Of a stretch of DNA of 35,221 nt, positions 3,167-34,571 are shown piece by piece. The notes beneath the pieces were generated by a model. That model worked only from the letters and a program-made list of their open reading frames with translations, searched no databases and had not been told where the DNA came from. The translations under genes and the position numbers were made by a program. How positions within the stretch are numbered: the first letter of the stretch is position 1; each line of letters starts with the position of its first letter. Source of the stretch: Candidatus Cacconaster equifaecalis (GTDB lineage: Bacteria; Bacteroidota; Bacteroidia; Bacteroidales; UBA932); assembly GCA_018064445.1 (NCBI GenBank), contig JAGHVE010000004.1, positions 1-35,221 of the forward strand. The letters run 5' to 3'.

Positions 3167-5596
3167 GTGAAGAAACTTGACAGACACCTCATACTCGCGT
3201 TCATAGGACCGTTCTTCGCAGTCCTGCTCGTCGTCACGTTCGCCCTCTCCCTGCAGTTTCTCTGGAGGTACATCGACGAACTGGTCGGCAAGGGGCTGGG
3301 GCTCGGAGTCATCCTGGAATTCCTGGGATGGGGTGCCTGTACGCTGCTTCCCCTGTCAATGCCCCTCGCATCCCTGCTGGCCTCCATAATGACGCTCGGA
3401 GGACTTGGGGAACACAACGAACTGCTGGCGATGAAGGCGGCCGGAATATCTCTCCAGAGAATCCTGATGCCCGTGATAATAGTGTCAGCTGCAATCAGCA
3501 TAGGGGCGTTTTTCGTGGCGAACAATCTGGTGCCGCTCTCCTACAACAAGATATACACCTTGAGGGAGGACATTGCGCGCACGAAGGAGGAAATCAAGAT
3601 ACCCTCCGGAACATTCTACGACGGAATCGACGGATATGTCATGAGAATCGAATCGGTGGATGACAACGGGATGATGCACAATCTCATCGTGTACGACCAC
3701 ACCTCTATCAACGGCGGAAATACCAAGATGACGCTGGCCGATTCCGGTTCCATCCGCATCACTCCCGACAAGAAAAACCTGATATTCGACCTTTACGACG
3801 GATGCTCGTACGAAGAGACGAACACTATGAATTACAGGGACACCACCCTGCAGCTGAGCCGTGCGAAATTCAACCGCCAGAATCTGATAATCCCTCTTGA
3901 AAACTATGGTTTCACCCGTTCCGGAGAAGACCGGTACGGTGACGAGGTGATGTCCAAGGGGCTGAGAACCCTGAGACAGGACAGGGATTCCCTCCAGCGT
4001 GTGTTTGACACCCTCATCACAGCCCAGCACAGGCGTTTTCTGTACAGCTCGGGGCTTACTTTCGCCAACCAGTTTGACAGCGTGAGCGTGGCGAAAAGGC
4101 ATATCAGCGGAAAGATAGATTTGGAGATTCTTTATGAAAAAGATTCTCTCGAACTGAGGAGAAGCGCCGTCCGTTCGGCGGCAGACCGTTCTTCCAACAC
4201 GGACGAGATGCTGGAGACATTCGGACGGGAAGGGGAGAGATACGTCATTCCAACCCGCAGGATAGACATAGAAAGTTTCCGCAAGTTCACCCTTTCCCTC
4301 GCCTGCCTGCTCTTCTTCTTCGTGGGGGCTCCGCTCGGGGCAATCATCCGCAAGGGAGGTCTCGGGACGCCGGTAATCATTTCGATATTCTTCTTCATCG
4401 TATATTACATCATCGACACCATCGGGAAGAGGCTTGCCAACAAGGGGGCGATCACGCCGTTCGAAGGTACGATAGTCTCGACGCTCGTCCTCCTGCCCAT
4501 AGGCATATTTCTTATGAGAAAATCAACTCAGGATTCCGGCCTGTTCAATCTGGATACCTACAGGGACTGGATCAAATATTGGACAAGGAAAGTTGTCAAG
4601 GTCTACCACAGGACTCTCAACCGGTTCAGCGGCAAAGGCGCGAAAATCAGGATTGTCTATATGGGAACCCCGGAATTTGCCGTGGCTCCGCTGGATGCCC
4701 TGATGCACAGTGAATTCGAGGTGGTGGGAGTTGTCACCGTGGCGGACAAGCCGAGCGGAAGGGGGATGCAGGTCAACCAGAGTGCGGTAAAGAAATATGC
4801 GGTTGAGAACAATATTCCGGTCCTGCAGCCGGTGAGCCTTAAAGATCCGGAATTCCTGGCACAACTCGCCTCGTTCAATGCCAACGTGTTTGTGGTGGTG
4901 GCCTTCAGGATGCTGCCAAAGGAGGTCTGGTCGATGCCTGCCCTTGGAACCTTCAACCTCCACGCCTCCCTTCTCCCGCAGTACAGGGGTGCGGCTCCGA
5001 TCAACTGGGCGATAATCAACGGTGAGAAGTTCACCGGAGTGACGACGTTTATGATAGACGAGCAGATAGATACCGGTAAAATCATATATCAGGAGGCCTG
5101 TTCAATCGAGGATTACGATGATGCCGGTTCCCTCCACGACAAACTGATGAAGATGGGTAGCGCACTTGTTCTCAAGACGGTCGATGCAATTGAGAACCGC
5201 TCTGTCAAGCTGCAGGAGCAGGTGATGCCCTTCAACCGTGCGCCGCGTGTCGCTCCCAAACTGACCAGGGAGACAGGAAAGATAGACTGGAGCGCCGGCG
5301 CAAGGGTCGTCAATCTCCTCATAAGGGGTCTCAGCCCATATCCGGTTGCGTACTCGACATTGGTCTTTGAAGATAAAGTCTTGAATGTAAAGATATTCGA
5401 GGCATACGCAGTGAGCGATAACAATTATTCCGTCCCTGAAGGGACCATCCGTACCGACGGGAAGAGTTTCCTCGAAGTCAAGTGCGGCAGCGGTGCCCTG
5501 CGCATTCTGAGCCTGCAGCTTGCAGGGAAGAAACGGATGGATGTGGCGGCATTCCTTGCCGGTTTCAGGGATATTGAAAATTACAGGTTCGTCTGA
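3167..5596 (+). CDS. LptG permease - methionyl-tRNA formyltransferase fusion (LptG-Fmt)
   Basis: One uninterrupted 809-residue ORF joins two usually separate proteins. Residues 1 to about 470 are an LptF/LptG (YjgP/YjgQ) permease, part of the transporter that lifts LPS from the inner membrane. It has membrane segments near 8-30, 48-75, 98-120, 371-391, 396-413 and 426-446, the loop GGLGEHNELLAMKAAGIS, and a periplasmic domain between. Residues about 493-809 are a complete Fmt, which formylates initiator Met-tRNA: YMGTPEFAV at 498, FNLHASLLPQYRGAAPI at 596 with N597 and H599, and the Asp in IDTGK (D635). The GTG start is the first possible start after an in-frame TAA. No in-frame ATG, GTG or TTG lies in the linker from 4541 until the ATG at 4661, which would remove the first Fmt strand. 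The LptG C-terminus is cytoplasmic, so the fusion is topologically sensible. Confidence 0.93.
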   Translation: MKKLDRHLILAFIGPFFAVLLVVTFALSLQFLWRYIDELVGKGLGLGVILEFLGWGACTLLPLSMPLASLLASIMTLGGLGEHNELLAMKAAGISLQRILMPVIIVSAAISIGAFFVANNLVPLSYNKIYTLREDIARTKEEIKIPSGTFYDGIDGYVMRIESVDDNGMMHNLIVYDHTSINGGNTKMTLADSGSIRITPDKKNLIFDLYDGCSYEETNTMNYRDTTLQLSRAKFNRQNLIIPLENYGFTRSGEDRYGDEVMSKGLRTLRQDRDSLQRVFDTLITAQHRRFLYSSGLTFANQFDSVSVAKRHISGKIDLEILYEKDSLELRRSAVRSAADRSSNTDEMLETFGREGERYVIPTRRIDIESFRKFTLSLACLLFFFVGAPLGAIIRKGGLGTPVIISIFFFIVYYIIDTIGKRLANKGAITPFEGTIVSTLVLLPIGIFLMRKSTQDSGLFNLDTYRDWIKYWTRKVVKVYHRTLNRFSGKGAKIRIVYMGTPEFAVAPLDALMHSEFEVVGVVTVADKPSGRGMQVNQSAVKKYAVENNIPVLQPVSLKDPEFLAQLASFNANVFVVVAFRMLPKEVWSMPALGTFNLHASLLPQYRGAAPINWAIINGEKFTGVTTFMIDEQIDTGKIIYQEACSIEDYDDAGSLHDKLMKMGSALVLKTVDAIENRSVKLQEQVMPFNRAPRVAPKLTRETGKIDWSAGARVVNLLIRGLSPYPVAYSTLVFEDKVLNVKIFEAYAVSDNNYSVPEGTIRTDGKSFLEVKCGSGALRILSLQLAGKKRMDVAAFLAGFRDIENYRFV

Positions 5597-21014: not shown

Positions 21015-22010
21015 ATGAAAGTGGCAATCGTTGGTGCAAGCGGCGCTGTAGGTCAGGAACTGTTGAAAGTGTTGGAACAGAGGAATTTCCCGGTGGATGA
21101 ACTCTTCCTTTTCGGGTCGTCCCGCAGCGCAGGCAGCACATACCGCTTCAAGGGGAAAGATATTGAAGTCCGTGAATTGAAGCACAATGACGATTTCAAG
21201 GGCATTGACATTGCATTCACTTCGGCAGGTGCAGGCACTTCACGTGAATTCGCTTCGACAATCACTATGCACGGGACCCTGATGATAGACAATTCAAGTG
21301 CCTTCCGTATGGATGAGCAGGTCCCTCTCGTCGTTCCCGAGTGCAATGCGGCGGATGCCCTGAACCATCCGAAAGGGATAATCGCAAACCCCAACTGCAC
21401 TACCATAATGATGGTGGTGGCTCTGGCTCCCATCGAGGCCCTATCCCATATCAGACGCATTCACGTGGCTTCCTACCAGTCCGCCTCCGGTGCCGGTGCA
21501 AGGGCGATGACCGAACTTCAGCAACAGCACAGGGATATCGTGGAAGGAAATCCCGTCAAGGTGGAGAAGTTCGCATATCAGCTTGCCTACAATGCAATCC
21601 CCCAGATTGACGACTTCACGGACAACGGCTATACGAAAGAGGAGATGAAGATGTTCAACGAGACCCGGAAGATTCTTCACTCGGATGTCGCCTGCAGTGC
21701 GATGTGCGTGCGCATCCCGGCTCTCCGGTCACATTCCGAGGCTGTCTGGGTGGAAACCGAAGATCCTCTCTCAGTCGGGCAGGTACGCGACGCAATCGCC
21801 TCAGCGCCCGGTGTCTCCCTTTGTGACGAGCCGGCATCGAAGACCTATCCTATGCCTCTGTTCACTGCCGGGAAGGACGACATTTACGTAGGGAGAATCC
21901 GCAAGGACATAGCGAATCCCAACGGAATGACATTCTGGCTCAGCGGAGACCAGATTCGGAAAGGCGCCGCCCTGAACGCCGTCCAGATAGCCGAATGTAT
22001 CGTTTGCTGA
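21015..22010 (+). CDS. asd: Aspartate-semialdehyde dehydrogenase
   Basis: Asd reduces aspartyl phosphate to the semialdehyde used by DapA and by threonine/methionine synthesis. The ATG follows immediately after the lysC stop. The 331 residues contain the Rossmann motif [12 protein letters not shown], the active-site cysteine in [17 protein letters not shown], and the family-typical [15 protein letters not shown] with the conserved His. It is the last gene of the DAP block; an 88-nt AT-rich gap with its own promoter follows. Confidence 0.97.
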
Positions 22011-22025
22011 ATGCCGCGAAATTTT

Positions 22026-22045
22026 TAAATATTTGCAAATATTTA
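22026..22045. repeat. Perfect 20-bp palindrome upstream of the flotillin-operon promoter
   Basis: TAAATATTTGCAAATATTTA is identical to its reverse complement. It ends at the edge of the candidate -33 element of the next promoter, where an operator would be expected. The local sequence is very AT-rich, so chance palindromes are more likely here than elsewhere. Confidence 0.65.
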
Positions 22046-22092
22046 TTGTTTTACAACAAATATTTATTATATTTGTATAAACAATAAATATT
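22038..22092. repeat. 14-bp perfect inverted repeat nested around the promoter
   Basis: AATATTTATTGTTT at 22038-22051 is the exact reverse complement of AAACAATAAATATT at 22079-22092. Inside it is a shorter inverted repeat, ACAAATAT (22056-22063) and ATATTTGT (22069-22076), which covers the -7 box. Since the arms lie on both sides of the predicted transcription start, a DNA-level operator fits better than a terminator. Confidence 0.6.
22045..22075 (+). promoter_or_regulatory. Bacteroidota promoter of the nfeD-flotillin-XRE operon
   Basis: ATTG at 22045-22048 and TATATTTG at 22068-22075 are separated by 19 nt, matching TTTG-N19-TAnnTTTG except for the first base of the -33 element. The predicted start is close to 22082, with a short leader to the ATG at 22099. 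Confidence 0.72.
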
Positions 22093-22098
22093 GCAGAT

Positions 22099-22698
22099 AT
22101 GATTGAATGGTGGAACACTCTCAACGTCGTGATGAAAATCCTTTGGGGCGTGACATTGGCCTCCTCTCTGGTTTTCATCATCCAAAGCATTATGACCTTT
22201 TTAGGTGCGGATGCTGATATGGACTTCGATGCGGATGCCTCCGGGGCAGACCTTGATTCGGGCGCTGAGCCCGGAACGGGACTCGGACTCCTGACATTCC
22301 GCAATCTCGTGAACTTCTGTCTCGGCTTCGGCTGGACGGCGGTTCTTCTCAAGGAACAGATTGCATCTGTCCCTCTCCTGCTTACGATAGCAATGCTTGT
22401 CGGCATCGGCCTTGTCGCACTTATTATGATGATGTTCAAATGGGTCGGCGGAATGCAGCAGAGCGGCAACATCGATGTCTGGAAACAGGCCTTGGGCTGC
22501 ACAGGCAGGGTATATCTGACAATTCCCGCCAACCGGGAGGGCACGGGCAAGGTGCAGATTAACATCAATAATTCCGTACGGGAGTACGAAGCCGTTACTG
22601 ACGGCTGCAAACTGCCAACCGGGGTACAGATAAAAGTCGTGGAGGTCATCAATGAAAGCACCCTCCTCGTGGAAGAACAGGAATCGATAATCATCTAA
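22099..22698 (+). CDS. NfeD-like membrane protein (flotillin partner)
   Basis: This 199-residue membrane protein has an N-terminal helix (about residues 12-35), an Asp-rich loop (DADMDFDADASGADLDSG), two further helices (about 70-115), and a C-terminal OB-like domain (from about residue 128: GCTGRVYLTIP ... VVEVINESTLLVEEQ). This is the layout of the YqiJ/YuaF-type NfeD proteins, which pair with flotillins in membrane microdomains. It sits 13 nt upstream of a flotillin gene behind its own promoter. The family assignment is by architecture and context, since the sequence is divergent. Confidence 0.78.
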   Translation: MIEWWNTLNVVMKILWGVTLASSLVFIIQSIMTFLGADADMDFDADASGADLDSGAEPGTGLGLLTFRNLVNFCLGFGWTAVLLKEQIASVPLLLTIAMLVGIGLVALIMMMFKWVGGMQQSGNIDVWKQALGCTGRVYLTIPANREGTGKVQININNSVREYEAVTDGCKLPTGVQIKVVEVINESTLLVEEQESIII

Positions 22699-22711
22699 AA
22701 CATATACAGTT

Positions 22712-24124
22712 ATGGGACCTATACTTATGCTCATCATCATTGCGGTCGTATTCATTTCCCTTGCCGCAATACTGTCACGTTACAAAAGATGCCCTTCCGA
22801 CAAGATACTTGTCATTTATGGAAAAACGGGCAAGAACGCATCCGCGAAGTGCATCCACGGCGGCGCCTCGTTCGTATGGCCGGTGTTCCAGAATTACAAA
22901 TTCCTGGACCTGACCCCCATCTCGATAGAATGCAACCTTCAGAACGCCCTTTCAAAACAGAACATCAGGGTTGACGTTCCCTGCCGCTTCACGGTGGGAA
23001 TCAGCACTGAACCGGAGAATATGTCCAATGCCGCGGAAAGGCTTCTCGGGCTGAAGACGGAAGACATACGGAATATCGCGACCGATATCCTTTTCGGCCA
23101 GCTCCGTCTTGTGATTGCCACGATGGACATCGAGGAAATCAACTCCGACCGCGACAAGTTCCTCGCAAACGTGAGCACCAACGTTGAGGCCGAACTCCGC
23201 AAAATCGGTCTCAAACTGATAAACGTCAACGTGACGGATATCAGGGATGAGTCCGGATATATCGAGGCTCTCGGCAAGGAGGCCGCCGCAAAGGCCATCA
23301 ACGATGCGAAGAAGAGCGTCGCCGAGCAGAACCGTTACGGTGAAATCGGTAAGGCCGAGGCTGACAGGGACAAGGACATCCGTATAGCCGAGACAAGCAG
23401 GGACACCCGTATCAACACGGCGGATGCCAATGCAAAGGCCGTCGAGGGAGAGAACAATTCCAAGATAGCGATAGCTCAGTCGGATGCCTTGCGCCGTGAG
23501 AAACAGGCGGAGGCGGAGAGAGTCGCTGTCGCGGCTGAAAAAGTGCAGGCTGCAAAGGCTCTGGAAGAGGCGTACAGAAGTGAGCGCGATGCTGAAATTG
23601 CACGTGCCGAGAGGGAGAAGGCCACCCAGCAGGCAAATATCGTTGTCGCCGCCCAGATAGAAAAGGAGAAGGCGATAATCGAGGCGGAGGCAATCGCCGA
23701 GCAGGTACGCCGCAAGGCAAAAGGTGAGGCTGACGCAATCTATGCCAAGATGGAGGCTCAGGCCCGCGGTACTCTTGAGGTGCTGGCAAAACAGGCTGAA
23801 GGCTTCGGCCAGCTGGTCAGCGCGGCAGGCGGAGACCCTTCACAGGCAATTACGATGCTAATCACCGACAAACTCCCCGAACTTGTCAGGACCCAGGTTG
23901 AGGCAATCAAGGGCATCAACATCGACAAGGTCACCGTCTGGGATTCGGGTAAAGGTGAGAACGGCAAGACGGCCACGGCAAACTTCGTCTCCGGCCTGAT
24001 GGGCAGCGTCCCTCCGTTGGAGGACCTTTTCAAGATGGCGGGAATGACCCTTCCCTCATATTTCAAAGGAACTGCTGAGAACGCTGAAAATCAGGTTCAG
24101 GAGAGTGGGGACGTAGAGCAATGA
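22712..24124 (+). CDS. Flotillin family protein (YqiK/FloT-like)
   Basis: This is a 470-residue SPFH-domain scaffold protein. It has an N-terminal membrane segment (residues 3-21), an SPFH domain (about 30-190), then a long Ala/Glu-rich coiled coil (about 190-355), as expected for flotillins. The conserved end ITDKLPELVRTQVEAIKGINIDKVTVWDSG identifies the bacterial FloT branch. Flotillins organise ordered inner-membrane domains and affect membrane fluidity, envelope stress responses and secretion; the client proteins here are unknown. Its stop overlaps the start of the small XRE gene by 4 nt (ATGA). Confidence 0.93.
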   Translation: MGPILMLIIIAVVFISLAAILSRYKRCPSDKILVIYGKTGKNASAKCIHGGASFVWPVFQNYKFLDLTPISIECNLQNALSKQNIRVDVPCRFTVGISTEPENMSNAAERLLGLKTEDIRNIATDILFGQLRLVIATMDIEEINSDRDKFLANVSTNVEAELRKIGLKLINVNVTDIRDESGYIEALGKEAAAKAINDAKKSVAEQNRYGEIGKAEADRDKDIRIAETSRDTRINTADANAKAVEGENNSKIAIAQSDALRREKQAEAERVAVAAEKVQAAKALEEAYRSERDAEIARAEREKATQQANIVVAAQIEKEKAIIEAEAIAEQVRRKAKGEADAIYAKMEAQARGTLEVLAKQAEGFGQLVSAAGGDPSQAITMLITDKLPELVRTQVEAIKGINIDKVTVWDSGKGENGKTATANFVSGLMGSVPPLEDLFKMAGMTLPSYFKGTAENAENQVQESGDVEQ

Positions 24125-24321
24125 TAATCATTAACATAGACGTGATGCTCGCCAAAAGGAAGATGTCCTGCGGCGAGCTTTCCGAGAAAGTGGGAATAAC
24201 CCCCGCCAATCTGTCAATCCTGAAGAACGGCAGGGCCAAGGCAATCAGATTCTCGACTCTTGAGGCGATATGTGAGGCACTTGACTGTCAGGTGGGGGAT
24301 ATACTGGAATATCAGCCCTGA
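24121..24321 (+). CDS. Small XRE/Cro-type HTH regulator (YozG-like)
   Basis: The 66-residue protein is essentially only a Cro/C1-type helix-turn-helix: MLAKRKMSCGELSEKVGITP, then ANLSILKNGRAKAIRFSTLE with the recognition helix, then the typical CEALDCQVGDILEY. It is translationally coupled to the flotillin gene (ATGA overlap), unusual for a free-standing toxin-antitoxin or phage regulator. A reasonable inference is that it regulates its own operon through the palindromes at 22026-22092. A 17-nt gap separates its stop from the converging phosphatase gene, with no terminator hairpin visible. Confidence 0.88.
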   Translation: MIIINIDVMLAKRKMSCGELSEKVGITPANLSILKNGRAKAIRFSTLEAICEALDCQVGDILEYQP

Positions 24322-24338
24322 ACCTGTCTGAGTCTGCA

Positions 24339-26252
24339 TCATCTGAGGATGATGGTCATTATGGTGATGTCGTCGTTCTGTTCGTTGCCGTCCGTGAACT
24401 GCTTTACAGTGGAATAGAGGTCCTCACAGGCCTTTCCTGAGTCGGAGAATAGGGTACACCTGTTCTCCGACCATTCTATCAGCCGATCTTCACCGAATTG
24501 TGTTTTGTCGGCCTTTTCCGCCTCCGTTACTCCGTCAGTGTAGATTACCAGTCTTGAGCCGTGCTGCAGGGTGCAGGATTCCTCCTCATAAGGGAAATCG
24601 GAGAAGAGGCCGGCGGCAAGATTGGGCTTTGCTTTCATATATTCCGCCTTGCCGTCAGGCGAGATTGTGACAATGGGATTGTGACCGGCATTGCAGTAGT
24701 TGAATTCGCCGGTCTCAAGGTTTATTCTACCGGCAAACAGCGTGACGAACATACCGTTTGCGTTGCTTTCGGCCAAAGCGTTGTTGATCTTCGATACAAC
24801 ATCTTTCATCGGTAGTCCCATTTTGGCGATGAACCGGAACGAGGCTCTGGTGATGGCCATCAGCAAGGAAGCGGGTACACCCTTCCCGGAAACGTCTCCA
24901 ACTGTGAAATAGAGCATTTTGTCATTGTCCAGGAAGAAGTCGTACAGGTCTCCTCCGACCTCTTTTGCCGGACGGACCATCGCGAGAAGTCCCACTCGGT
25001 CCGTAACAGGGAAGTCGTGGGGGAGCATAGCCATCTGTATCTGGTTGGCAATGTTGAGCTCGCTCTGTATCCTCTCCTTTGTGGCGGTCGTTTCCTGCAG
25101 TTCCCCGATGTAGTCCTTGAGAGATTTCTGCATATAATCGAAGGAATCCCTGAGTTTCTTGATTTCATCGTCCTCCTTGATTTGGGGAAGTTCCACATCG
25201 AAGTTGCCCTTTGCTACCTCCAAAGCGGATTCCGTGAAATGGGAGAGAGGGTCGGTCAATTTGTGGATTATCACGTAACTTGCACGAAACAGTATCAGGA
25301 GTCCGATGATGACCAGTGAGAAAAGTATGATGTGAATCCGGGAAGTACGGGACAGAACTTCCGTATAGTTGCAGGAGATGCTGGCCTTCCATCCGTTGTG
25401 GAGAGGGGCGAATACGGCGAATGAGGCTTTCCCGTCCTTGATGTATTTGATTTTCCCTGTTCTCCCCTGGCTGATGGCTTCCGCCAGTGGGAGAACGTTC
25501 CGGTCTTTTCTCGAAGTGTCCGCCAATATGGAGAAGATTGTCTCACCCCTGAGACTTGAGTCGTTGTTCTGGTTGATAAAAGAACCGTTGCGGCTTATCA
25601 ACATCACGCTGGAATTGGGATATGGCTTGATGGAGGACAATATGCCCGATATCCACTCGAGGGAGATGTCCGCCGTGATTACGGCAAACACCTTTCCCTC
25701 CGCGTCTTTGAGGGGATAGCTGTAGGTGGACATCAGACAGTCCGCTCCTCCGTCATCGAAATAGGGCTCTCCCCAGTTCGGTTCACCCAAAAGATATGGT
25801 ATCTGGAACCAGTCCATATAGAAGTAGTTGTACTGCTGCGTGCCAAGTTGCTTCGAATGGATCTCCCCGCTTTCCGTATCGAGGAAGGAGTATGGACTGA
25901 AATAGATCTTGTCCTTGAAATAGTAACTGTCAAAAGCTATCGCACTGCCGATAATGTCCGGATTCTCGCTCACAATCTTTTGTGTGATATGGTACAGGTA
26001 CTCTTCGTTGTCAAGATTCTCACAGATGAGCCAGGCGGAGGAAGACACTGCCATTTCCACTTTCTGAAGGATATTCTCTATCTTGGAGATGGTGGCATCC
26101 CTGAGGTTTTCTGCAGCTTTTGTCGCTTCGTTCGCAACCACGATATGAGAGGCGACATCTGCGACAAGCAACGTCGTTATGAATATCGTTGAGGTGACAA
26201 TCAGTATATTCCGGCTTAGTCTGGCGGAGAATGAAAGATGTCCGTTTTTCAT
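24339..26252 (-). CDS. Membrane sensor SpoIIE/RsbU-type PP2C phosphatase (dCache-HAMP-SpoIIE)
   Basis: This is a 637-residue sensor phosphatase. TM1 spans about residues 11-33. An extracytoplasmic region at 41-303 has the dCache pattern (WFQIPYL...GEPYFDDGG...MSTYSYPL). TM2 is at 306-328, HAMP at about 328-383, a short linker helix follows, and the SpoIIE PP2C domain covers about 415-637. Metal-binding motifs are present: EVGGDLYDF (431-439), VGDVSGKGVPASLLMA (451-466), YTDGVTEA (571-578) and NDDITIM (626-632). Such enzymes dephosphorylate STAS anti-sigma-factor antagonists, releasing a partner-switch. The start overlaps the upstream binding-protein gene by 4 nt (ATGA), suggesting that the two act together. 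Confidence 0.93.
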   Translation of the reverse strand: MKNGHLSFSARLSRNILIVTSTIFITTLLVADVASHIVVANEATKAAENLRDATISKIENILQKVEMAVSSSAWLICENLDNEEYLYHITQKIVSENPDIIGSAIAFDSYYFKDKIYFSPYSFLDTESGEIHSKQLGTQQYNYFYMDWFQIPYLLGEPNWGEPYFDDGGADCLMSTYSYPLKDAEGKVFAVITADISLEWISGILSSIKPYPNSSVMLISRNGSFINQNNDSSLRGETIFSILADTSRKDRNVLPLAEAISQGRTGKIKYIKDGKASFAVFAPLHNGWKASISCNYTEVLSRTSRIHIILFSLVIIGLLILFRASYVIIHKLTDPLSHFTESALEVAKGNFDVELPQIKEDDEIKKLRDSFDYMQKSLKDYIGELQETTATKERIQSELNIANQIQMAMLPHDFPVTDRVGLLAMVRPAKEVGGDLYDFFLDNDKMLYFTVGDVSGKGVPASLLMAITRASFRFIAKMGLPMKDVVSKINNALAESNANGMFVTLFAGRINLETGEFNYCNAGHNPIVTISPDGKAEYMKAKPNLAAGLFSDFPYEEESCTLQHGSRLVIYTDGVTEAEKADKTQFGEDRLIEWSENRCTLFSDSGKACEDLYSTVKQFTDGNEQNDDITIMTIILR

Positions 26253-27193
26253 CTGATGAGATCCTTATATTCGATGTTGTTGACAATATGCCCGGTGTTC
26301 CTGAGGGCTTCCACCATTTTGACGAACACTTCCGGCTTGACTGCGGCATAGTCCGCAACTCCCGTTTCAGGGTTTACCTGCAGGTCAAGGTATTCGTCAA
26401 GCATCCTCCTCTGGTGTTCCCGGTTGGTGGTGATATTATGCTCAAGGATATATTTCCATGTGATATTCAGCGCCTCCTTGCGATTGGCGCGGGTGTAGTC
26501 CCATCCCCGCTTTGAAGCCCGAACAAACTTGTCGACAAGTTCCTTGTTCTTATTGTAATATTCCTCAGTCACATACAATCCGTCCTCGGGGGCTTCATAA
26601 CCGAAATTCGAAAAACGGATGATGTGGTCGTCGGGAATCTTGCCTGCGGCAAGTTCCAGGGCAATCAGTTCATTGTATGAATAAGCGAGTGTTGCGTCCA
26701 CTGCGTTGTGAACATACAGGTTGACAGTATTGAGGAAAGGAATCCAGTTGATATGTATGCCGGTGTATGTCTCAAGGATGTCACAGAAATCGGCATAGCC
26801 CGCTCTCCATCTCCCCACCTTGAGGGAATCGAGTTCTTCGGGGCTGCTGATGGGGTTGTGAGAAACGCAGCACAGCCCGCTTTTCTGGGTGAGCTGCAGG
26901 ACATTGACCAGTCTCATTCCATCGGATCTTGATATCATTGATGACAGCAATTGCGCCCCGACTATGTCCGCATTCCCTTTCATCAGTTCGTAAATTGCTG
27001 TTTCTGATGAGTTGGCGCTCAAGTGCCGTATCTCCACGTCAAGGCCTTCGTCAGAATAGAAACCCTTTTCGTATGCGACATAATACCCGCTGAATTGAGC
27101 CTGCGAGGTCCATTGGGGGGTGAAGGTGATTTTCTGGGCAAGAAGGTTTGAGGCGAGTGACAGTACTGCCAATGTTGCGACAAGTTTCTTCAT
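26249..27193 (-). CDS. NMT1/THI5-like periplasmic substrate-binding protein, orphan
   Basis: This is a 314-residue exported protein with a signal peptide (MKKLVATLAVLSLASNLLAQ) and an NMT1/THI5-like fold: FTPQWTSQAQFSGYYVAYEKG, the GFYSDEGLDVEI segment, and LMKGNADIVGAQLLS, typical of binding proteins for thiamine-pyrimidine-like or sulfonate-type ligands. The CCCFC iron motif of true THI5 enzymes is absent. No ABC permease or ATPase gene is near. It lies between an RsbW-like kinase and the sensor phosphatase and overlaps the latter by 4 nt, so a ligand-presenting sensory role is more likely than uptake. The ligand is unknown. Confidence 0.87.
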   Translation of the reverse strand: MKKLVATLAVLSLASNLLAQKITFTPQWTSQAQFSGYYVAYEKGFYSDEGLDVEIRHLSANSSETAIYELMKGNADIVGAQLLSSMISRSDGMRLVNVLQLTQKSGLCCVSHNPISSPEELDSLKVGRWRAGYADFCDILETYTGIHINWIPFLNTVNLYVHNAVDATLAYSYNELIALELAAGKIPDDHIIRFSNFGYEAPEDGLYVTEEYYNKNKELVDKFVRASKRGWDYTRANRKEALNITWKYILEHNITTNREHQRRMLDEYLDLQVNPETGVADYAAVKPEVFVKMVEALRNTGHIVNNIEYKDLIR

Positions 27194-27203
27194 TCTGTTT
27201 CCG

Positions 27204-27593
27204 TTACAACTTCTTGGTCATTGTGAATAAATTGGATCCGTTTTCGTAGTGGTATGTGACCGAGTCCATCATCTGCTTGCAGATGAATATGCCCAGGCCA
27301 CCTATCTGCCTGCTCTCGAGAGGAGCGTCAATGTCGGGGTCATCCTTTGCCAGAGGGTTGAATTCCACGCCGCCGTCACGGAATCCTATCTCAATTTCAT
27401 TGTTCTTGCGGTTTACCGTGAGTTCCACCCATTTGGATCCGGAGTAGCACAGGATGTTCTCCTCGACCTCTTCCACGCACAGCCTTATCTTGAAAAGTAT
27501 GTCCTCAGGGACATCCGCCATCTCCGGGCAATTCATTACACACTCTATTATTTCTGCATTCCGGCCTTCTACCGGGTCAAATCTTTGTGTCAT
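27204..27593 (-). CDS. RsbW-like serine kinase / ATP-binding anti-sigma-type protein
   Basis: This is a 129-residue GHKL-fold (HATPase_c) protein of RsbW/SpoIIAB size. The N box is CVEEVEENILCYS (residues 39-51, with N46). The G1 box is FRDGGVEFNP (71-80) and the G2 box IGGLGIFICKQMMD (97-110). Such proteins bind a sigma factor or other target and phosphorylate a STAS antagonist. Neither partner is encoded nearby. It is 10 nt upstream of the binding-protein gene and 19 nt after prsW. Whether it has kinase activity is not shown by sequence. Confidence 0.88.
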   Translation of the reverse strand: MTQRFDPVEGRNAEIIECVMNCPEMADVPEDILFKIRLCVEEVEENILCYSGSKWVELTVNRKNNEIEIGFRDGGVEFNPLAKDDPDIDAPLESRQIGGLGIFICKQMMDSVTYHYENGSNLFTMTKKL

Positions 27594-27612
27594 CGTGATA
27601 TGATATTAATAG

Positions 27613-28557
27613 TTAACGGCAAATATACGAAAGAATCCTGAAGCCTGTCTTTCCTATCTGTTTGCGCAGGGCGGCGAGTTCATCCATTTTCTGCCGGAAG
27701 GCCTCGTCATCCTTGCTGTCGGGAGTGAATCCCGCCTGGCTCAGCAGCATACGGCTCTGCTTTTCAATCTTCAATTCCAGATAGAGTTCCTCGTAGGTTA
27801 CTATGTCGAAGAAAACCTCGGGCTGGAACTGATCCTTCATACCAAGCAGATATTTCCCCGCCTTCGTGGCGGCGAAATCCCCCCGCCTTATTGCTGAAAG
27901 TGTCTGGACATCAGTGCTGATACTGTGGTCCATCCAGCTGTAAATCCTCTTTTCGTCAAGGGCGAACATTATCAGGAAAATCACGGCAAAGACCAGAATC
28001 GTGACGGCCAGAAGAACAGGGGCCGGAAGTTGCAGGTTGTTGTGCGCCAGATGAAGCAAGACGGAAGGCAGGAATGCAGGCAGGACAAATGCCGCAAACG
28101 GTCTTCTGTGGGAGAAAAGGTGAAGCAGGCAGGCTGCCAGACCGGTGCATCCGATATGCAGGAATGCGCATCCGAATCCTCTGAAGAATGCGGTTGAAAA
28201 ATTCATATCCGGGTTGGACAGCACATATATTATGTTCTCAAGAAGAGCGAACCCTCCTCCAACGGCCGCTCCGTATATCAGGGCCTCGGAAAGGAACTTG
28301 ATTTTTCTGTCGGCAACCAGCCAGATGACTATGCATCCCTTGGCAAATTCCTCTATCAGCGGGACGGCGGACATTCCCGATATCCCGATGGCCCCCGTGC
28401 CACGGCAGAGCAGCCAGACCGCCAGGCAGCTGATTATTCCGGCGGCGATGCAGACCGCGATGCGCCACATCCTGACAAGTGCAAAGCTGTCGAGAAGTTT
28501 CAGAATAACCAGATAAATGGCTATCGGAAGGACGGATGCGGGAAGAACGGATATCAT
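27613..28557 (-). CDS. PrsW-family intramembrane protease with C-terminal cytoplasmic extension
   Basis: PrsW proteases cleave membrane-anchored regulators; the founding member cuts the anti-sigma factor RsiW. The ATG at 28557 overlaps the upstream AraC stop (ATGA), so it is preferred over the longer track start; this gives 314 residues. Motifs are PLIEEFAKG (E69, E70), GGGFALLENI (E107, N108), FLHIG (H134) and LLHLAHN (H169, H172), with seven or eight membrane helices up to about 200. The last ~110 residues are soluble and charged and I do not recognise them. A role in releasing a membrane regulator is an inference from the family; the substrate is unknown. Confidence 0.86.
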   Translation of the reverse strand: MISVLPASVLPIAIYLVILKLLDSFALVRMWRIAVCIAAGIISCLAVWLLCRGTGAIGISGMSAVPLIEEFAKGCIVIWLVADRKIKFLSEALIYGAAVGGGFALLENIIYVLSNPDMNFSTAFFRGFGCAFLHIGCTGLAACLLHLFSHRRPFAAFVLPAFLPSVLLHLAHNNLQLPAPVLLAVTILVFAVIFLIMFALDEKRIYSWMDHSISTDVQTLSAIRRGDFAATKAGKYLLGMKDQFQPEVFFDIVTYEELYLELKIEKQSRMLLSQAGFTPDSKDDEAFRQKMDELAALRKQIGKTGFRILSYICR

Positions 28558-29552
28558 TTGCCCTTTCTGTTGTCTGCCAGCCACATTTTCGGGGTCATAT
28601 CCATAATCTGGGCGAAATTGCGGTAGAAAGACTGGAGATGCGAATATCCGCTGCGGACGGCTATGTCCTTTATGTTTGTGCCGTCTCTTTCCTCTTTCAT
28701 CAGTTCCAGGGCATACTCTATCCTGCGGTGATTGATGAAATCAGAGAAGTTCTGGCCGTAGCGGCCGTGGATGCTGTTTGAAAGATAGGTCCTGTTTGTA
28801 TTGAGTCTTTCCGCCATTGAAGCAAGGGAGATGGTCGGATCCAGGAACATTTTTTCCTCCAGGATACGGCTGATAATCCCGTTGTCAGGTTCGTTTTCCG
28901 CCTTTTCCTGCCTTGGCTGGGGCTTGGGTACGGCAGGCGTGGGTTTCGGCATCTCCACGGGAATTTCCGGCAGGGTGTCAAGCTTGTACACGTTCCATCC
29001 CAGAAGGCACTGCATTGCGGTCACGAACAGGGAGAGGGACACGGCAACGGGCGGTGTCTTCAAAATCCGGTAGGGCAGGAAAGCCAGCACTTCCAGTACC
29101 ACGATGGTGGCGATGAGGTAGAGGAGAATCTGGGTAAGCCGGTCCGCCGAGTCATTCTCCGTATCGAAGAATTCGGCGACGGCCTTGTTGTAGCGGGATA
29201 CCCCGACCACGGCCCAGATGGAAAAAGTCATCATCTGCAGGCACAGGAATATATTGGTCGCTACCGGGATTTTCAGCGCGGCGAGAGCCAGTGACGGCAG
29301 GAAAATCAGCCAGTCCCACTTGGGGATGTCGCTGCGGAGCGTCACCTCCCTTATTGCGAGGAAAAACAGTGGATAGATGAAAAGAACGGCCATATTCCTG
29401 TCCACTATTGAGAATATTGCCATAACCATCCCCGCCACCATAAGCAGCTGGGATTTCCTGATGCCTTTCTTGAAAAAAATCGCCACGGCCCAGAAAAGGA
29501 TCACAACGGCGGGCAGAATCTGCAGGATGAGGTATAGTGTCTTTGACTCCAT
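28554..29552 (-). CDS. Seven-TM membrane protein with C-terminal AraC-type HTH
   Basis: This is a 332-residue membrane-bound transcription factor. Seven hydrophobic segments occupy about residues 6-205, followed by a Pro-rich linker (KPTPAVPKPQPRQ) and an AraC/XylS DNA-binding domain at about 235-328, with LDPTISLASMAERLNTNRTY for the first HTH and IKDIAVRSGYSHLQSFYRNF for the second. This form occurs repeatedly in Bacteroidota. Its own start lies five bases from a good -7 box. It is the first gene of the minus-strand operon and would be the natural regulator of the divergent promoters, though that is inference. Confidence 0.9.
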   Translation of the reverse strand: MESKTLYLILQILPAVVILFWAVAIFFKKGIRKSQLLMVAGMVMAIFSIVDRNMAVLFIYPLFFLAIREVTLRSDIPKWDWLIFLPSLALAALKIPVATNIFLCLQMMTFSIWAVVGVSRYNKAVAEFFDTENDSADRLTQILLYLIATIVVLEVLAFLPYRILKTPPVAVSLSLFVTAMQCLLGWNVYKLDTLPEIPVEMPKPTPAVPKPQPRQEKAENEPDNGIISRILEEKMFLDPTISLASMAERLNTNRTYLSNSIHGRYGQNFSDFINHRRIEYALELMKEERDGTNIKDIAVRSGYSHLQSFYRNFAQIMDMTPKMWLADNRKGK

Positions 29553-29698: not shown

Positions 29699-30634
29699 AT
29701 GTACGTAAAAAATCAAAACTTCGCAATCTATCTGATTCTCGCAGTGGTCGTGGGATTCGGATTGAGTTTCCTTTTCGGCGGTCTTTCCGTCCGGTCTGAC
29801 CTTTTGGGCGGAGATGTCTCCAAGGCAAACAGGTACTACAATCAGAAGGAGGATCCTTCCTTCACGGTGATAGAGGAAAGGCTCAGGAATGACGGTGAGT
29901 TCCTCGACAGGACAAAAGGAGCGATGGGTTTCCTCCAGAGCCGTATGACGGTCCTGTCCGAACTGACGGAAAAGACAATCGAGGCCTGTGCCGGAATTCC
30001 GGAGTTCCAGCCGCTGATGGCTGAACTTCAGTCGATGAACGCCAAGGCATTCAACACGGCCAAGGCTCTCTCCAACGCCAACGATGGCCTTGACAAGATG
30101 GTGGCAGGCAGGTATGCTCCCGAATACGAACTTTATTCCAATCAGGCATACATCGGCTTCAGCAAGGTCGAGAGCCAGATGGACCTCGGTGAAAAGTTCT
30201 GCAGGATTGCAACCTCCTTCCTTGAAGGCAAGGATGAAGGACAGTATCAGCAGATTGCGCAGCTTCTGTCGGTTTGGGAAGTATATTGCATAGAGAATTC
30301 CCAGATGGTTGCGGATTGGCATAGCCCCGACATAGATTCGAGAGATACCGTACTGCATGAACAGATGCAGGAAGGGAATCGCCATAAAATCAACATCCCG
30401 GGTCCAGGTCCTAGAACGGGGGGAGGATCTGGCAAGCTCAGCAACAGAGTTTTGGATGAATACATCAACGGGATTTCAACCGGCGTCAGGAACAATATCG
30501 ATTGGGCAGGCTTGGGCGGAATCACTCTTGTGGATGCTTTTCCAACTATTAATGTTTACCCGGGTATGACGGGTTTCCCCAATGCAAGTCAGGTTGAAAG
30601 TCAGACTCTCAAAGTAATAATAGAAGACATTTAG
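29699..30634 (+). CDS. Membrane-anchored protein of unknown family, paralogue copy 1
   Basis: I do not recognise this 311-residue protein. Residues 8-28 form one N-terminal membrane segment (AIYLILAVVVGFGLSFLFGG). About 160 helical, charged residues follow on the far side of the membrane (LRNDGEFLDRTKGAMGFLQS, SELTEKTIEACAGIPEFQ, YAPEYELYSNQAYIG). After about 190 the sequence differs from the paralogue at 33675 and includes a Pro/Gly-rich linker (INIPGPGPRTGGGSG). The first 31 residues are identical to copy 2 except in flanks, and the first ~100 bp are about 93% identical. The ATG is 1-2 nt from its stop-coupled neighbour: the next gene starts 1 nt after the stop. Confidence 0.8.
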   Translation: MYVKNQNFAIYLILAVVVGFGLSFLFGGLSVRSDLLGGDVSKANRYYNQKEDPSFTVIEERLRNDGEFLDRTKGAMGFLQSRMTVLSELTEKTIEACAGIPEFQPLMAELQSMNAKAFNTAKALSNANDGLDKMVAGRYAPEYELYSNQAYIGFSKVESQMDLGEKFCRIATSFLEGKDEGQYQQIAQLLSVWEVYCIENSQMVADWHSPDIDSRDTVLHEQMQEGNRHKINIPGPGPRTGGGSGKLSNRVLDEYINGISTGVRNNIDWAGLGGITLVDAFPTINVYPGMTGFPNASQVESQTLKVIIEDI

Positions 30635-30635
30635 G

Positions 30636-33600
30636 ATGAGGGGCATCCTGTCGGAAAGACTGAAAGTTATGATAATCTGTGGGCTGTGCGCGATGTTTGC
30701 GCCGGCCCGCAGTTTCGTCGTTCCCGCCCAGACCGTGTATCAATACAAGACGGATGATGCCACCATCTGTTTCTTCGACAAGAACCAGTCTCAGTACATT
30801 CCTCATCTTATGAGGAAATATGAGTTGGGAAAAGAACTGCACCGTCAGATATGGGACACGATTCCTTCCCAGTCCCCTTTTATGATGCTGACGGACTGGC
30901 AGGATGACGGAAATGCGGGAGTCGGGGTACTGCCGCACACCACAATTCAGGTGAATCTCGCCCCGATGAATATGGCCTATTTCGTATCGCCTTCCAATGA
31001 ACGGTTTGACCATCTCTTCAAGCACGAGTACACCCACGTGGTGATGGCGGACAAGACGAATGACCGGGATATGGGATGGCGGCGATTCACCGGCAACAAG
31101 GTGGTGCCGAATTCAAAATATCCTCTCAGCGCCCTGTGGAGTTACCTTGATGCTCCAAGATGGTATGCCCCCAGATGGTATCACGAGGGCATCGCCTGCT
31201 TTATGGAGACCTGGCTCGGAGACGGGGTGGGGAGGTCTCTCGGAGGCTATGACGAAACCTATTTCCGTACACACATCAAGGAGGGGGAGGAACTTTATTC
31301 GGTGGTCGGCCTGGAAACGGAGGGCACGACGTCCGATTTCCAGCAGGGTGCGACCTCTTACCTTTACGGAACAAGGTTCGTCAACTATCTGGCATACGTC
31401 TATGGCTATGAGAAGTTGATTGATTTCTACAACAGGACGCAGGACAGCCGCACGTTCTATGCAAAACAGTTCGAAAAGGTGTATGGCAAGTCCCTCCGCA
31501 CCGTGTGGAAGGAGTGGGAGGATTTCGAGAAAGAGTATCAGCGGCAGAATCTTGAGAAGCTGGCGGAGTACCCCCTGACGGAGTGCAGGCAGATGGTCGG
31601 GAAGAATCTCGGCGCCACATCACCGATTATCTACGATGAGGAGGCGGGGGAGGCTTTCGCCGCAGTCTACTTCCCTGGAAGCCCCGCGCAGGTTGTCAGA
31701 TTCCCTTTGGACACTGCATCCGGTACTCTGGGCAAGATGAAGAAGCTGGCGGAGATCGACGGTGTCCAGGCCTATCAGACTGCGTACATCGCTTACGACA
31801 GGCGCGGGCGCAGGCTCATCTGGACGGACAGGAATTCAAAGATGCGCGGACTTGTGGTGTATGACCTCAAGCGGGGCAGGGTGGAGAAGAGGCTGAAATA
31901 CCAGCGTGTGTACGACATCTGCTATGACAATGCGGGCGACTGTATGTATGGTATCATCAGCAATCAGGGCATCTGCCACCTCGTCAGATATGATTCCGCA
32001 CTTGAGGAGAGAGAACTCATCTACAGTTTCCCTTTCGGAGTGAGCGTGAGCGACTTGGACGTATCTCACGACGGAGAGAAGATAGTGATGTCCGTCCTTG
32101 GCAAGAAGGGGGAACATTCGCTGATAATGTTCAGGCGGTCTGACATCGAGAACTCCAATTACGAATATCAGACTCTTTATTCTTTGGAAGACTCCAACCT
32201 GAGCCAGTTCCGCTTCAGTCACGATGACAGCAGACTGGTCGGATTCAGTTACTACACCGGTGTCCCCAACATCTGGACGCTTGATCTGGAATCCTGCAAG
32301 TTCGACCTGCTTTCCAACGTCCAGACCGGCCTGTTCGCACCGTATCTTGCCTCGAACGGCAGTGTCTATGCGCTTGAGTATGGTTCTGACGGGATGACTC
32401 CGGTCCGGTTCGAATACAAGGTGCTTGAAGATGCCAACAGTGTGGAATTCCTGGGACAGAAGGCTTTTGAGACCAATCCCGGCCTTGCCGAACTCTCAAC
32501 TCTGAAGAAGCCTGTGGAGGAAATAGGTTTCGGTGAGGTCTATGATTCGGTGAAGGTATATAAACCGTTCAGGGAAATCAGGTTCCAGGGGGCCTATCCG
32601 GATATCAGCGGGTTCACGGACAAGGAGGGGTGGAACAAGATGACACCGGTTCTCGGCTATCATTTCGCGTTCTACGACCCGCTGTCCCTTTTTTCCGTCA
32701 ATCTGTTCGTGGGGGCTTCTCCGTGGAGTCACAACGACTGGAAGAACAAGTTTCACGCGAGCGCCGAGATAAAATACTGGCAGTGGACTCTCAACGCGGC
32801 CTGGAACCCGACCAGTTTCTATGATCTGTTCGGCCCCAGACGCTCCTCCAGGAAAGGCTATCACGTCGCTCTTGGATATGATTCCAAGCACACGATGCAA
32901 TATCCCTTCACCTGGGACTGGGGTGCCTCAATCGCGCATTATGGAGATATGGATGCGTTGCCTCTCTATCAGGAGATTACAACCGACGTTCACTCTTTCC
33001 AGACAGCGGATGTCTATATAAAGGGCGGCAAGGTACGCGGCTCCATCGGGTCGGTTGCGGCCGAAAAGGGATACCGTTTCTCAGCCGAAGGCTATACCTA
33101 TCTGGCGGACGGGAAATTCTTCCCTTCCCTGGAAGTGTCGGGAGATGCCGGATTCCTGCTGCCCGTCGGCAGACATAATTCATTCTGGTTCAAGGGTTCT
33201 GCCGGCCAGTCGTTCGGGGACCGCGGCTCTGCCTTCGGGAACACCTATTTCGGCGGTTTCCGCAACAACTTCGTGGACAACGGTGAGGTGAACAGGTACC
33301 GGACCGTCAATGCAATGCCTGGTGCGAATATCGACCAAATCGGTGCCCACTGCTATCTGAAAGCGACCGGGGAAATCAATTTCTGCCCCATCCGGTTCAA
33401 CAATTTCGGAGCCTTGCAGTGCTATCCCAACTACATTCAGTTCTGTCTGTTCGGACACGACCTGGCAACGGACCTGTGGGGTGACGGCAGGGAATTCAAG
33501 GCAAATTATGTCAGTGCAGGAGCCCAGATGAACATTCAGATGGTCTTCTTCACCCATATGAAGACCACTCTTTCCTTCGGGTATGCCAGAGTCTGGGGCG

Positions 33601-33647
33601 GCGGTCTCAACCAGGGTGATTTTATGTTCTCCCTGAAGTTGCTGTGA
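30636..33647 (+). CDS. Exported gluzincin-motif / beta-propeller / outer-membrane barrel-like protein
   Basis: This is a 1003-residue exported protein. An N-terminal signal region (about residues 10-32) is followed by a metallopeptidase-like part with HEYTH (130-134) and, 50 residues later, WYHEGIACF with E184 as candidate third zinc ligand, the M1-like gluzincin (Peptidase_MA) arrangement. Residues ~325-620 show repeats such as LIWTDRNSKMRGLVVYDL and IVMSVLGKKGEHSLIMF, fitting a TolB-like beta-propeller. From ~650 to the end, alternating aromatic strands (YHFAFYDPLSLFSVNLFVGA, FGNTYFGGFRNNF) suggest an outer-membrane barrel. APRWYAPRWY is a small internal duplication just before the catalytic Glu. 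The substrate is unknown. The domain boundaries come from pattern reading only. Confidence 0.8.
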   Translation: MRGILSERLKVMIICGLCAMFAPARSFVVPAQTVYQYKTDDATICFFDKNQSQYIPHLMRKYELGKELHRQIWDTIPSQSPFMMLTDWQDDGNAGVGVLPHTTIQVNLAPMNMAYFVSPSNERFDHLFKHEYTHVVMADKTNDRDMGWRRFTGNKVVPNSKYPLSALWSYLDAPRWYAPRWYHEGIACFMETWLGDGVGRSLGGYDETYFRTHIKEGEELYSVVGLETEGTTSDFQQGATSYLYGTRFVNYLAYVYGYEKLIDFYNRTQDSRTFYAKQFEKVYGKSLRTVWKEWEDFEKEYQRQNLEKLAEYPLTECRQMVGKNLGATSPIIYDEEAGEAFAAVYFPGSPAQVVRFPLDTASGTLGKMKKLAEIDGVQAYQTAYIAYDRRGRRLIWTDRNSKMRGLVVYDLKRGRVEKRLKYQRVYDICYDNAGDCMYGIISNQGICHLVRYDSALEERELIYSFPFGVSVSDLDVSHDGEKIVMSVLGKKGEHSLIMFRRSDIENSNYEYQTLYSLEDSNLSQFRFSHDDSRLVGFSYYTGVPNIWTLDLESCKFDLLSNVQTGLFAPYLASNGSVYALEYGSDGMTPVRFEYKVLEDANSVEFLGQKAFETNPGLAELSTLKKPVEEIGFGEVYDSVKVYKPFREIRFQGAYPDISGFTDKEGWNKMTPVLGYHFAFYDPLSLFSVNLFVGASPWSHNDWKNKFHASAEIKYWQWTLNAAWNPTSFYDLFGPRRSSRKGYHVALGYDSKHTMQYPFTWDWGASIAHYGDMDALPLYQEITTDVHSFQTADVYIKGGKVRGSIGSVAAEKGYRFSAEGYTYLADGKFFPSLEVSGDAGFLLPVGRHNSFWFKGSAGQSFGDRGSAFGNTYFGGFRNNFVDNGEVNRYRTVNAMPGANIDQIGAHCYLKATGEINFCPIRFNNFGALQCYPNYIQFCLFGHDLATDLWGDGREFKANYVSAGAQMNIQMVFFTHMKTTLSFGYARVWGGGLNQGDFMFSLKLL

Positions 33648-33674
33648 CGGTTTCAATTTTAAAAAATATCGGTT

Positions 33675-34571
33675 ATGTATGTAAAAAATCAAAACTTCGC
33701 AATTTATCTTATTCTCGCAGTGGTAGTGGGATTCGGATTGAGTTTCCTTTTCGGTGGTCTTTCCGTCCAGTCTGATTTTGCCGGCGGAGACATCTCCAAG
33801 GCCTCGCGCTATTCCGCCCAGAAGGAGGATCCCGCACTTAGCGTAATAGAGGACAGGCTCAGGAATGACGAGGAGTTTTTCAACAGCACGAAAGGTGCGA
33901 TGGACCTCCTTCAGAACCGTATGACGGCTCTGTCCGAACTGACGGAAAAGACAATGGAGGTATGTTCCGGAATTCCTGAATTCCAGCCGATGATGACGGA
34001 ACTTAAGTCTATGAATGCCAAGGCGTTCAACACCTCTCTGGCTCTTACCAATGCCAATGCGGGTCTTGAGAGGATGGCGGCGGGAAAACTCGCCCCCGAT
34101 TATGAACTCTATTCCAACCAGGCATATATCGGCTTCAGCAAGGTTGCGAGTCAGATGGACCTCGGCAAGAGAGTGTATGACGTTTCATCCGCATATCTCG
34201 CCGGCAAGAGGGGCGACCAGTACAAACCTCTTGCGGACATTGCCGTGGTATGGTCAGTCTATTGTGCTCAGGATGCCTATATGAACGGCTCCAACAAGGA
34301 CATCGAGTATTGGAAGAACAAATATTCCGAACTTGACGGTGTCGGCGGTTCCGAGATTCGGGCGCAACTTGAAAAGGCGCTTGCCCAGGCCTCCAAGGCA
34401 CAACTGAAGGCCGGAATACAGGACAATTTCGAGAATCTCCTTCAGGACGCGCAGGTCTTGAATAAAGTTATGCTTCTGGGCGGTGGAACTGCGATTATTT
34501 TCAACGGTTCGGTTCTGGAAGCCGCATTCCCGGGATTGACTGACTTGGGAGAAAGGCTTCCCATAGAATAG
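33675..34571 (+). CDS. Membrane-anchored protein of unknown family, paralogue copy 2
   Basis: This 298-residue paralogue of the 29699 gene shares its N-terminal anchor (first 31 residues identical) and the whole region to about residue 190 at high similarity, including ELTEKTMEVCSGIPEFQ, SMNAKAFNT and YELYSNQAYIGFSKV. The C-terminal third is different: a Lys/Ala-rich helical stretch (IRAQLEKALAQASKAQLKAG) followed by a hydrophobic segment (VMLLGGGTAIIFNG), which could be a second membrane contact. It starts 27 nt after the gluzincin gene; no separate promoter is clear, but an ATTTTAAAA leader resembles that of copy 1. The function is unknown. A duplication with C-terminal divergence or replacement is inferred. 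Confidence 0.8.
   Translation: MYVKNQNFAIYLILAVVVGFGLSFLFGGLSVQSDFAGGDISKASRYSAQKEDPALSVIEDRLRNDEEFFNSTKGAMDLLQNRMTALSELTEKTMEVCSGIPEFQPMMTELKSMNAKAFNTSLALTNANAGLERMAAGKLAPDYELYSNQAYIGFSKVASQMDLGKRVYDVSSAYLAGKRGDQYKPLADIAVVWSVYCAQDAYMNGSNKDIEYWKNKYSELDGVGGSEIRAQLEKALAQASKAQLKAGIQDNFENLLQDAQVLNKVMLLGGGTAIIFNGSVLEAAFPGLTDLGERLPIE

Follow-up and report, generated by a model that had tools for sequence, protein, structure and literature searches.

Five tightly packed genes lie on the minus strand at 24339-29552 of the stretch analysed here (the window), which is 35,221 nucleotides of contig JAGHVE010000004.1 from Candidatus Cacconaster equifaecalis, a Bacteroidales metagenome-assembled genome (MAG; 1.71 Mb, 161 contigs, 88.6% complete). 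Three of them, at 24339-27593, encode an RsbW-like HATPase, a periplasmic binding protein (SBP), and a SpoIIE phosphatase (Table 1). Most simply, these three genes appear to be a fragment of a cluster conserved in gut Bacteroidales, which has been split into three loci in this species and in the sister genome G020. It is quite probable that the SBP-coupled SpoIIE phosphatase, the HATPase, and a STAS protein form a partner switch. The whole chain, in which 24339-27593 would be the input half of a split SiaABCD-like partner switch setting (p)ppGpp, is proposed tentatively, with somewhat less than even confidence. A sequence-only reading of the window had placed the five open reading frames (ORFs) correctly and had named domains with which Pfam agrees. 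However, it had taken all five genes for a single system, and the STAS protein, a RelA/SpoT-type synthetase, and a hydrolase-kinase protein, all on other contigs, were outside its view.

Relatives were searched with each protein, and homology served to map the genes of about 80 regions. Within the family, 22 genomes have a cluster of HATPase, SpoIIE, or STAS genes that begins with a RelA/SpoT synthetase-like gene (RelSpo, about 365 aa). In most of these clusters there is also an HD_4 hydrolase, either joined to an APH-type kinase in one protein or encoded next to it (HD~APH). A few clusters are cut short by contig ends or have a part located elsewhere. The genes are usually arranged as RelSpo, HD~APH, HATPase, SBP, SpoIIE, STAS, and then a transporter. 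The cluster is compact in two further MAGs from horse faeces (L195 and L196), where gaps or overlaps range from a few nucleotides to 26 nt. The loci of the window and G020 lack STAS, RelSpo, and HD~APH, all three of which were found elsewhere in each genome. RelSpo and STAS are a pair 1 nt apart (contig C155 in the window genome and C28 in G020), while HD~APH lies next to a lysA-like gene in both (C52:24445-25848, 58% identical, in the window genome; C47 in G020). The dN/dS values against G020 are 0.06-0.21 for all six proteins (HATPase 0.09, SBP 0.16, SpoIIE 0.17), indicating purifying selection. In a maximum-likelihood tree of 46 SpoIIE sequences, the window protein groups with the intact-cluster proteins of G002 (L033), L195, and L196 (SH-aLRT 97). 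Thus, the simplest view of the window layout is the break-up of an older cluster, a layout seen in two related MAGs whose contigs may be incomplete or misassembled. Among 40 genomes of the genus, 22 have both STAS and SpoIIE orthologues, 14 have neither, and 3 and 1 have a single one (Fisher 4e-7, uncorrected for kinship).

What might be the output of this switch? RelSpo matches PF04607 with 67 bits, its best PDB match is YjbM (5f2v; YjbM/RelQ-type small alarmone synthetases), and the synthetase core residues are invariant in 17 sequences. The HD_4 domain (PF13328) of HD~APH scores 63 bits, and the G002 orthologue matches solved hydrolase domains of small alarmone hydrolases and Rel. HD~APH is therefore apparently related to (p)ppGpp hydrolases, best matching the small alarmone hydrolases, and such an activity is predicted for it. 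The STAS gene (C155:25074-25373) encodes an invariant S54-S55, a candidate phospho-acceptor. The window genome also has a long RelA/SpoT homologue (RSH), a 751-aa HD-containing ORF on C110.

Some toxSAS modules have HD-type antitoxins, and the RelSpo and HD~APH genes overlap in relatives. Since toxSAS synthetases exist in toxin-antitoxin modules (PMC11782079), RelSpo and HD~APH might be a pair of this type or a phage-defence pair, with the adjoining partner switch incidental. This is very unlikely, because the synthetase and the hydrolase are on separate contigs in the window species and in G020 and yet both are kept at 95-98% identity between the two. Moreover, many genomes of the genus share one fixed order that looks vertical, and the tie to STAS is constant.

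On the input side, 28 of the 35 places with an NMT1 homologue have a SpoIIE gene immediately downstream of it, and the two genes mostly share an ATGA overlap, as they do in the window. In three more genomes, the NMT1 domain is fused to HisKA-HATPase histidine kinases (L030 1-2337 (-), L031 106-2157 (-), and L064 6172-8118 (-)), one of them with a PAS domain and one with a receiver domain. The adjacency and the fusions together suggest that this NMT1 clade is a clade of sensors. The binding protein had been called an orphan, and it is indeed the sole NMT1 match in the window genome; no ABC permease or ATPase gene adjoins it in the window, and in relatives SpoIIE comes after it. The proposed route from the binding protein through SpoIIE to a partner switch is also very likely, as the SBP-SpoIIE pair is kept into other families of the order with HATPase and STAS partners kept alongside. 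This arrangement resembles that of the SBP-dependent receptors LuxP-LuxQ, NspS-MbaA, and TorT-TorS, in which a periplasmic SBP gene adjoins a membrane receptor gene with no transporter alongside, whereas the receptor in the window is a Ser/Thr phosphatase. Activation of transmembrane receptors by SBPs is widespread, and the classes listed are chemoreceptors, sensor kinases, c-di-GMP enzymes, and Ser/Thr kinases, with phosphatases not in the list (PMC9602780).

The AlphaFold model of the SBP (pLDDT 92) is closest to ThiY (3ix1, E 1.2e-20) and a thiamin-bound SBP (4nmy) among solved folds. It shares the fold and the sequence family of the ThiY/NMT1-THI5 binding proteins. In contrast to those, it has no ABC transporter genes beside it, and the identity is 20% or less. 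A pyrimidine-like ligand is a guess from the ThiY-like fold.

The metal-binding Asp columns of SpoIIE (D435, D453, D573, and D627/D628) are invariant in 31 homologues. Its model has a dCache domain between two transmembrane helices, a HAMP domain, and a long helical linker (pLDDT 86; at a pTM of 0.51, the relative placement of the domains is unsure). The PDB matches include the SiaA PP2C domain (6k4e, TMt 0.83), the phosphatase domain of RssB, and dCache domains of chemoreceptors. The label 'dCache' given by the sequence-only reading holds for the fold in structural comparison, although PF02743 itself is under the cut-off. The best NCBIfam match is SiaA (5e-20), at 71.5 bits far under the equivalog cut-off of 700. 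An amino-acid-binding dCache motif was considered, but, judged by eye, the window SpoIIE has Met in place of the Arg that should stand two residues ahead of the conserved Trp, and the motif is not claimed. The activation of the RsbU phosphatase via its linker is established (PMC12143880).

The HATPase is the sole PF13581 match in the window genome, and its boxes are conserved (E41-E42, N46, D73, G75, and G98-G101). The switch may then work as follows. The SBP would bind a small periplasmic ligand, probably a heterocycle resembling a pyrimidine or a thiamin precursor, and, loaded or empty, would dock on the dCache domain of SpoIIE. The PP2C domain would receive the signal by way of the HAMP domain and the helical linker. 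The phosphatase and the HATPase, acting as a kinase, would set the Ser phosphorylation of the RelSpo-linked STAS protein, which in turn may bind and control the RelSpo synthetase in trans, as STAS or STAS-like proteins do with SiaD, HsbD, and BgrR. HD~APH would be the opposing hydrolase, and the envelope signal would thereby set (p)ppGpp. A direct contact between STAS and RelSpo is the preferred hypothesis, since this pair persists after the break-up of the cluster.

SiaABCD of Pseudomonas aeruginosa (PMC8457831, PMC7647112) is alike in having a sensor-HAMP-PP2C phosphatase, a HATPase-type kinase, a small STAS-like protein, and a nucleotide second-messenger synthetase that SiaC binds directly; here the synthetase gene lies with the switch genes in relatives and with STAS in the window genome. 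The systems differ in that SiaC is a DUF1987 protein and SiaD a diguanylate cyclase, whereas here there are a PF01740 STAS protein and a RelA/SpoT-type synthetase. STAS or STAS-like switch partners control diguanylate cyclases in three cases, namely SiaC-SiaD, HsbA-HsbD, and BgrV-BgrR (PMC8457831). In the latter two, as is predicted here, a partner-switch STAS protein controls a second-messenger synthetase; they differ in producing c-di-GMP rather than an alarmone and in their sensors. The Sia operon is not known to include a binding protein or a hydrolase.

The RsbU-RsbV-RsbW-SigB and chlamydial Rsb systems likewise combine a PP2C phosphatase, a STAS protein, and a HATPase kinase with conserved catalytic boxes. 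Is a sigma factor the output here, too? The same input and switch might lead to a HATPase that sequesters the primary sigma factor or an extracytoplasmic function (ECF) sigma factor, the alarmone enzymes being co-regulated neighbours. Such HATPase_c_2 proteins act as anti-sigma factors in other bacteria, and chlamydial RsbW is reported to act on the primary sigma factor (cited in PMC8256260). Sigma70_r3 has one match in the window genome and one in each of 22 of 25 genomes of the genus, while two have none and G008 has two (ECF sigma factors were not counted). The candidate SigB-type output was therefore rejected, and a SigB-type target of the HATPase is unlikely, while primary and ECF sigma factors are possible targets. 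The sole r3-bearing factor lies on the RelSpo-STAS contig (C155:7474), though about 16 kb off. The earlier assignment of the HATPase as a GHKL anti-sigma-type protein stands as far as the RsbW-like HATPase_c_2 family is concerned, while the anti-sigma role is weakened by the lack of a second Sigma70_r3 factor. The SBP-coupled sensor and the alarmone enzymes in the cluster also set the system apart from the Rsb systems. No neighbours are more constant than the synthetase and hydrolase genes. When the cluster breaks, it is RelSpo and not the HATPase that keeps STAS beside it, and 16 genomes have the HATPase fused to a lipid kinase. A sigma output is accordingly considered unlikely, though worth keeping in mind.

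Several observations weigh against the alarmone reading. In a phylum search with one genome per species (393 drawn), RelSpo matched 14 genomes, 13 of them beyond the window genome. No linkage of RelSpo and the switch was seen outside the family, with no SpoIIE, HATPase, or STAS gene beside RelSpo in the regions read for 6 of the 13 relatives (L184-L189). RelSpo is not obligate, either. SBP-SpoIIE-HATPase-STAS modules occur with amino-acid ABC genes instead (L048 and L049), with amino-acid ABC genes and a lipid kinase (L046), or with neither (L058), and there are also SBP-SpoIIE pairs that have neither a HATPase nor a STAS gene near them (L045 and L050-L053). The SBP gene is absent from one well-supported group of six in the SpoIIE tree and from one other locus (L138), all within RelSpo clusters (L132-L138). 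Since some full RelSpo clusters have no SBP gene, the SBP is apparently an accessory input, not essential to the switch. The dCache domain may have a ligand of its own that it binds directly. Furthermore, 16 relatives have the HATPase as the C-terminal part of a YegS/DAGK lipid kinase encoded inside a partner-switch cluster (e.g. L039 5310-6614), and the fused kinase could be its real output there.

HATPase-like C-terminal extensions were also noticed, both in partner-switch clusters, on an amino-acid ABC ATPase (L046 5114-6220, 18.7 bits) and on a MATE pump (L056 5380-7155, 4.5 bits). As a general feature of ABC ATPases and MATE pumps they were set aside; the scores are weak, and only L046 is persuasive.

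It might be, then, that the HATPase/STAS output is whichever enzyme or transporter lies in the neighbourhood of each lineage (lipid kinase, APH kinase, amino-acid ABC ATPase, MATE pump, or xanthine permease), and that the window version lost its effector or uses another. The DAGK/YegS~HATPase_c_2 fusions fit this idea, as do the extension on the ABC ATPase, very weakly that on the MATE pump, and the differing transporters that adjoin STAS. However, the extensions have no Pfam support, and the YegS relatives in the window genome are all distant, whereas its RelSpo-STAS pair persists. A variable output is thus distinctly unlikely.

The remaining two genes of the window, araC and prsW, appear to be an independent unit lying by chance beside the switch genes. 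G030 has an intact AraC-PrsW pair alone with the same -4 overlap (L145) and its HATPase gene on a different contig. In G002, PrsW lies beside an internally deleted araC (L146), about 40 kb from the HATPase-SBP-SpoIIE cluster of that genome. Other PrsW homologues are solitary, and several adjoin a 209-aa gene (L150) that, going by its sequence, looks like a uracil phosphoribosyltransferase gene. The G020 DNA is 90% identical over 21789-27686 of the window; the alignment ends 74 nt inside the 3′ end of prsW and resumes as a 53-bp exact match to 33596-33648. Thus, a 5.9-kb deletion in G020 took araC and nearly all of prsW, leaving the last 24 codons of prsW together with the HATPase, SBP, and SpoIIE genes. 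The tight spacing, and the prsW remnant ahead of the HATPase gene in G020, which shows that the order was once in both species, would suit a single operon for envelope signalling whose five products act together. But conservation of the five-gene order was searched for and the order was found in 1 of 101 genomes, that of the window, and the G020 deletion that removed araC and prsW left the other three genes, which are under purifying selection. A single five-gene system is therefore highly improbable. The suggestion that PrsW acts on a membrane regulator is plausible for the AraC factor, since the pair recurs, perhaps through proteolytic release of the AraC domain, although not as part of one five-gene system.

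Table 1. Features on the window; coordinates are those of the 35,221-nt stretch.
Feature	Position	Strand	Basis
SpoIIE (PP2C) phosphatase, dCache-HAMP-coiled coil-SpoIIE, SiaA/RsbU-like sensor phosphatase, 637 aa	24339..26252	-	Pfam, NCBIfam, AlphaFold model, metal-binding Asp
NMT1/THI5-like periplasmic binding protein (SBP), signal peptide, 314 aa	26249..27193	-	Pfam, model
RsbW-like HATPase_c_2 protein, 129 aa, intact N/G1/G2 boxes	27204..27593	-	Pfam
TATATTTG, candidate separate promoter within the final codons of prsW, 26 nt ahead of the HATPase ATG	27620..27627	-	-7 element match; overlaps coding sequence
PrsW-family intramembrane protease, ~100-aa C-terminal extension; separate module	27613..28557 (start corrected)	-	Pfam, motif check
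AraC-family regulator, N-terminal multi-transmembrane region; separate module paired with PrsW	28554..29552	-	Pfam HTH_18

The Pfam domains over the cut-off in the five proteins are HTH_18, PrsW-protease, HATPase_c_2, NMT1, and, in the phosphatase, MCP-like_PDC_1, HAMP, and SpoIIE. The mechanical ORF call for prsW was 27613-28584 with a GTG start. Since the G030 relative begins with MISF, which aligns with MISV at the ATG at 28557 of the window, the latter is the better start, and it gives an ATGA overlap with araC. With this correction, the intergenic distances from araC to SpoIIE are -4, 19, 10, and -4 nt. As in PrsW of Bacillus subtilis, a glutamic intramembrane protease, the PrsW-protease domain is present (69 bits versus a cut-off of 23.5) and the motif residues are kept (EExxK, E116, H143, and H178/H181). 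In contrast, the window protein is under the equivalog cut-off of NCBIfam NF033739 (26 versus 225 bits), is paired with a membrane AraC protein, and has the C-terminal extension.

The TATATTTG sequence ahead of the HATPase gene, which matches the Bacteroidales -7 element, is identical in G020, where it lies inside the 74 nt of prsW kept there. This suggests that the HATPase, SBP, and SpoIIE genes may have their own promoter, apart from araC-prsW. In a promoter scan with TANNTTTG, the motif was not enriched in the window (8 found versus 9.7 expected).

Some further features were seen around these genes. The 53 bp at the edge of the araC-prsW deletion (33596-33648; L032 865-917) are the 3′ end of a 1003-aa gene and are 100% identical in G020, while the genomes otherwise differ by about 10%. 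The 1003-aa protein has a weak peptidase MA match, and its gene lies between two plus-strand genes (29699-30634 and 33675-34571) for paralogous membrane-anchored proteins that are 69% identical over 203 aa, have no Pfam match, and diverge wholly at their C-termini. A second PrsW family has a membrane AraC gene directly after it in reversed order (L147 4800-7000), and PrsW and AraC genes are similarly close in G001, G004, G026, and G032. In an 809-aa plus-strand frame at 3167-5596, an LptF/LptG permease (residues 6-452) is followed by a complete methionyl-tRNA formyltransferase (495-801), the result of either a gene fusion or a lost stop codon.

The partner switches known so far act on sigma factors or c-di-GMP enzymes. 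No description of a SpoIIE/STAS partner switch combined with alarmone enzymes was found in the literature covered, which leaves out most subscription papers, and the novelty is provisional to that extent. It is conceivable, though rather doubtful, that in gut Bacteroidales an SBP activates a Ser/Thr phosphatase and that a (p)ppGpp synthetase and hydrolase are under the direct control of a STAS protein. The stringent response would then be set by a metabolite from outside the cell, perhaps a pyrimidine or thiamin precursor. The break-up of the operon into three loci, with only the synthetase and STAS genes still adjacent, is a natural hint as to which proteins touch. If the proposal is true, these uncultured gut Bacteroidales would have a direct route by which a metabolite in the periplasm acts on the stringent response, in addition to the long RSH.

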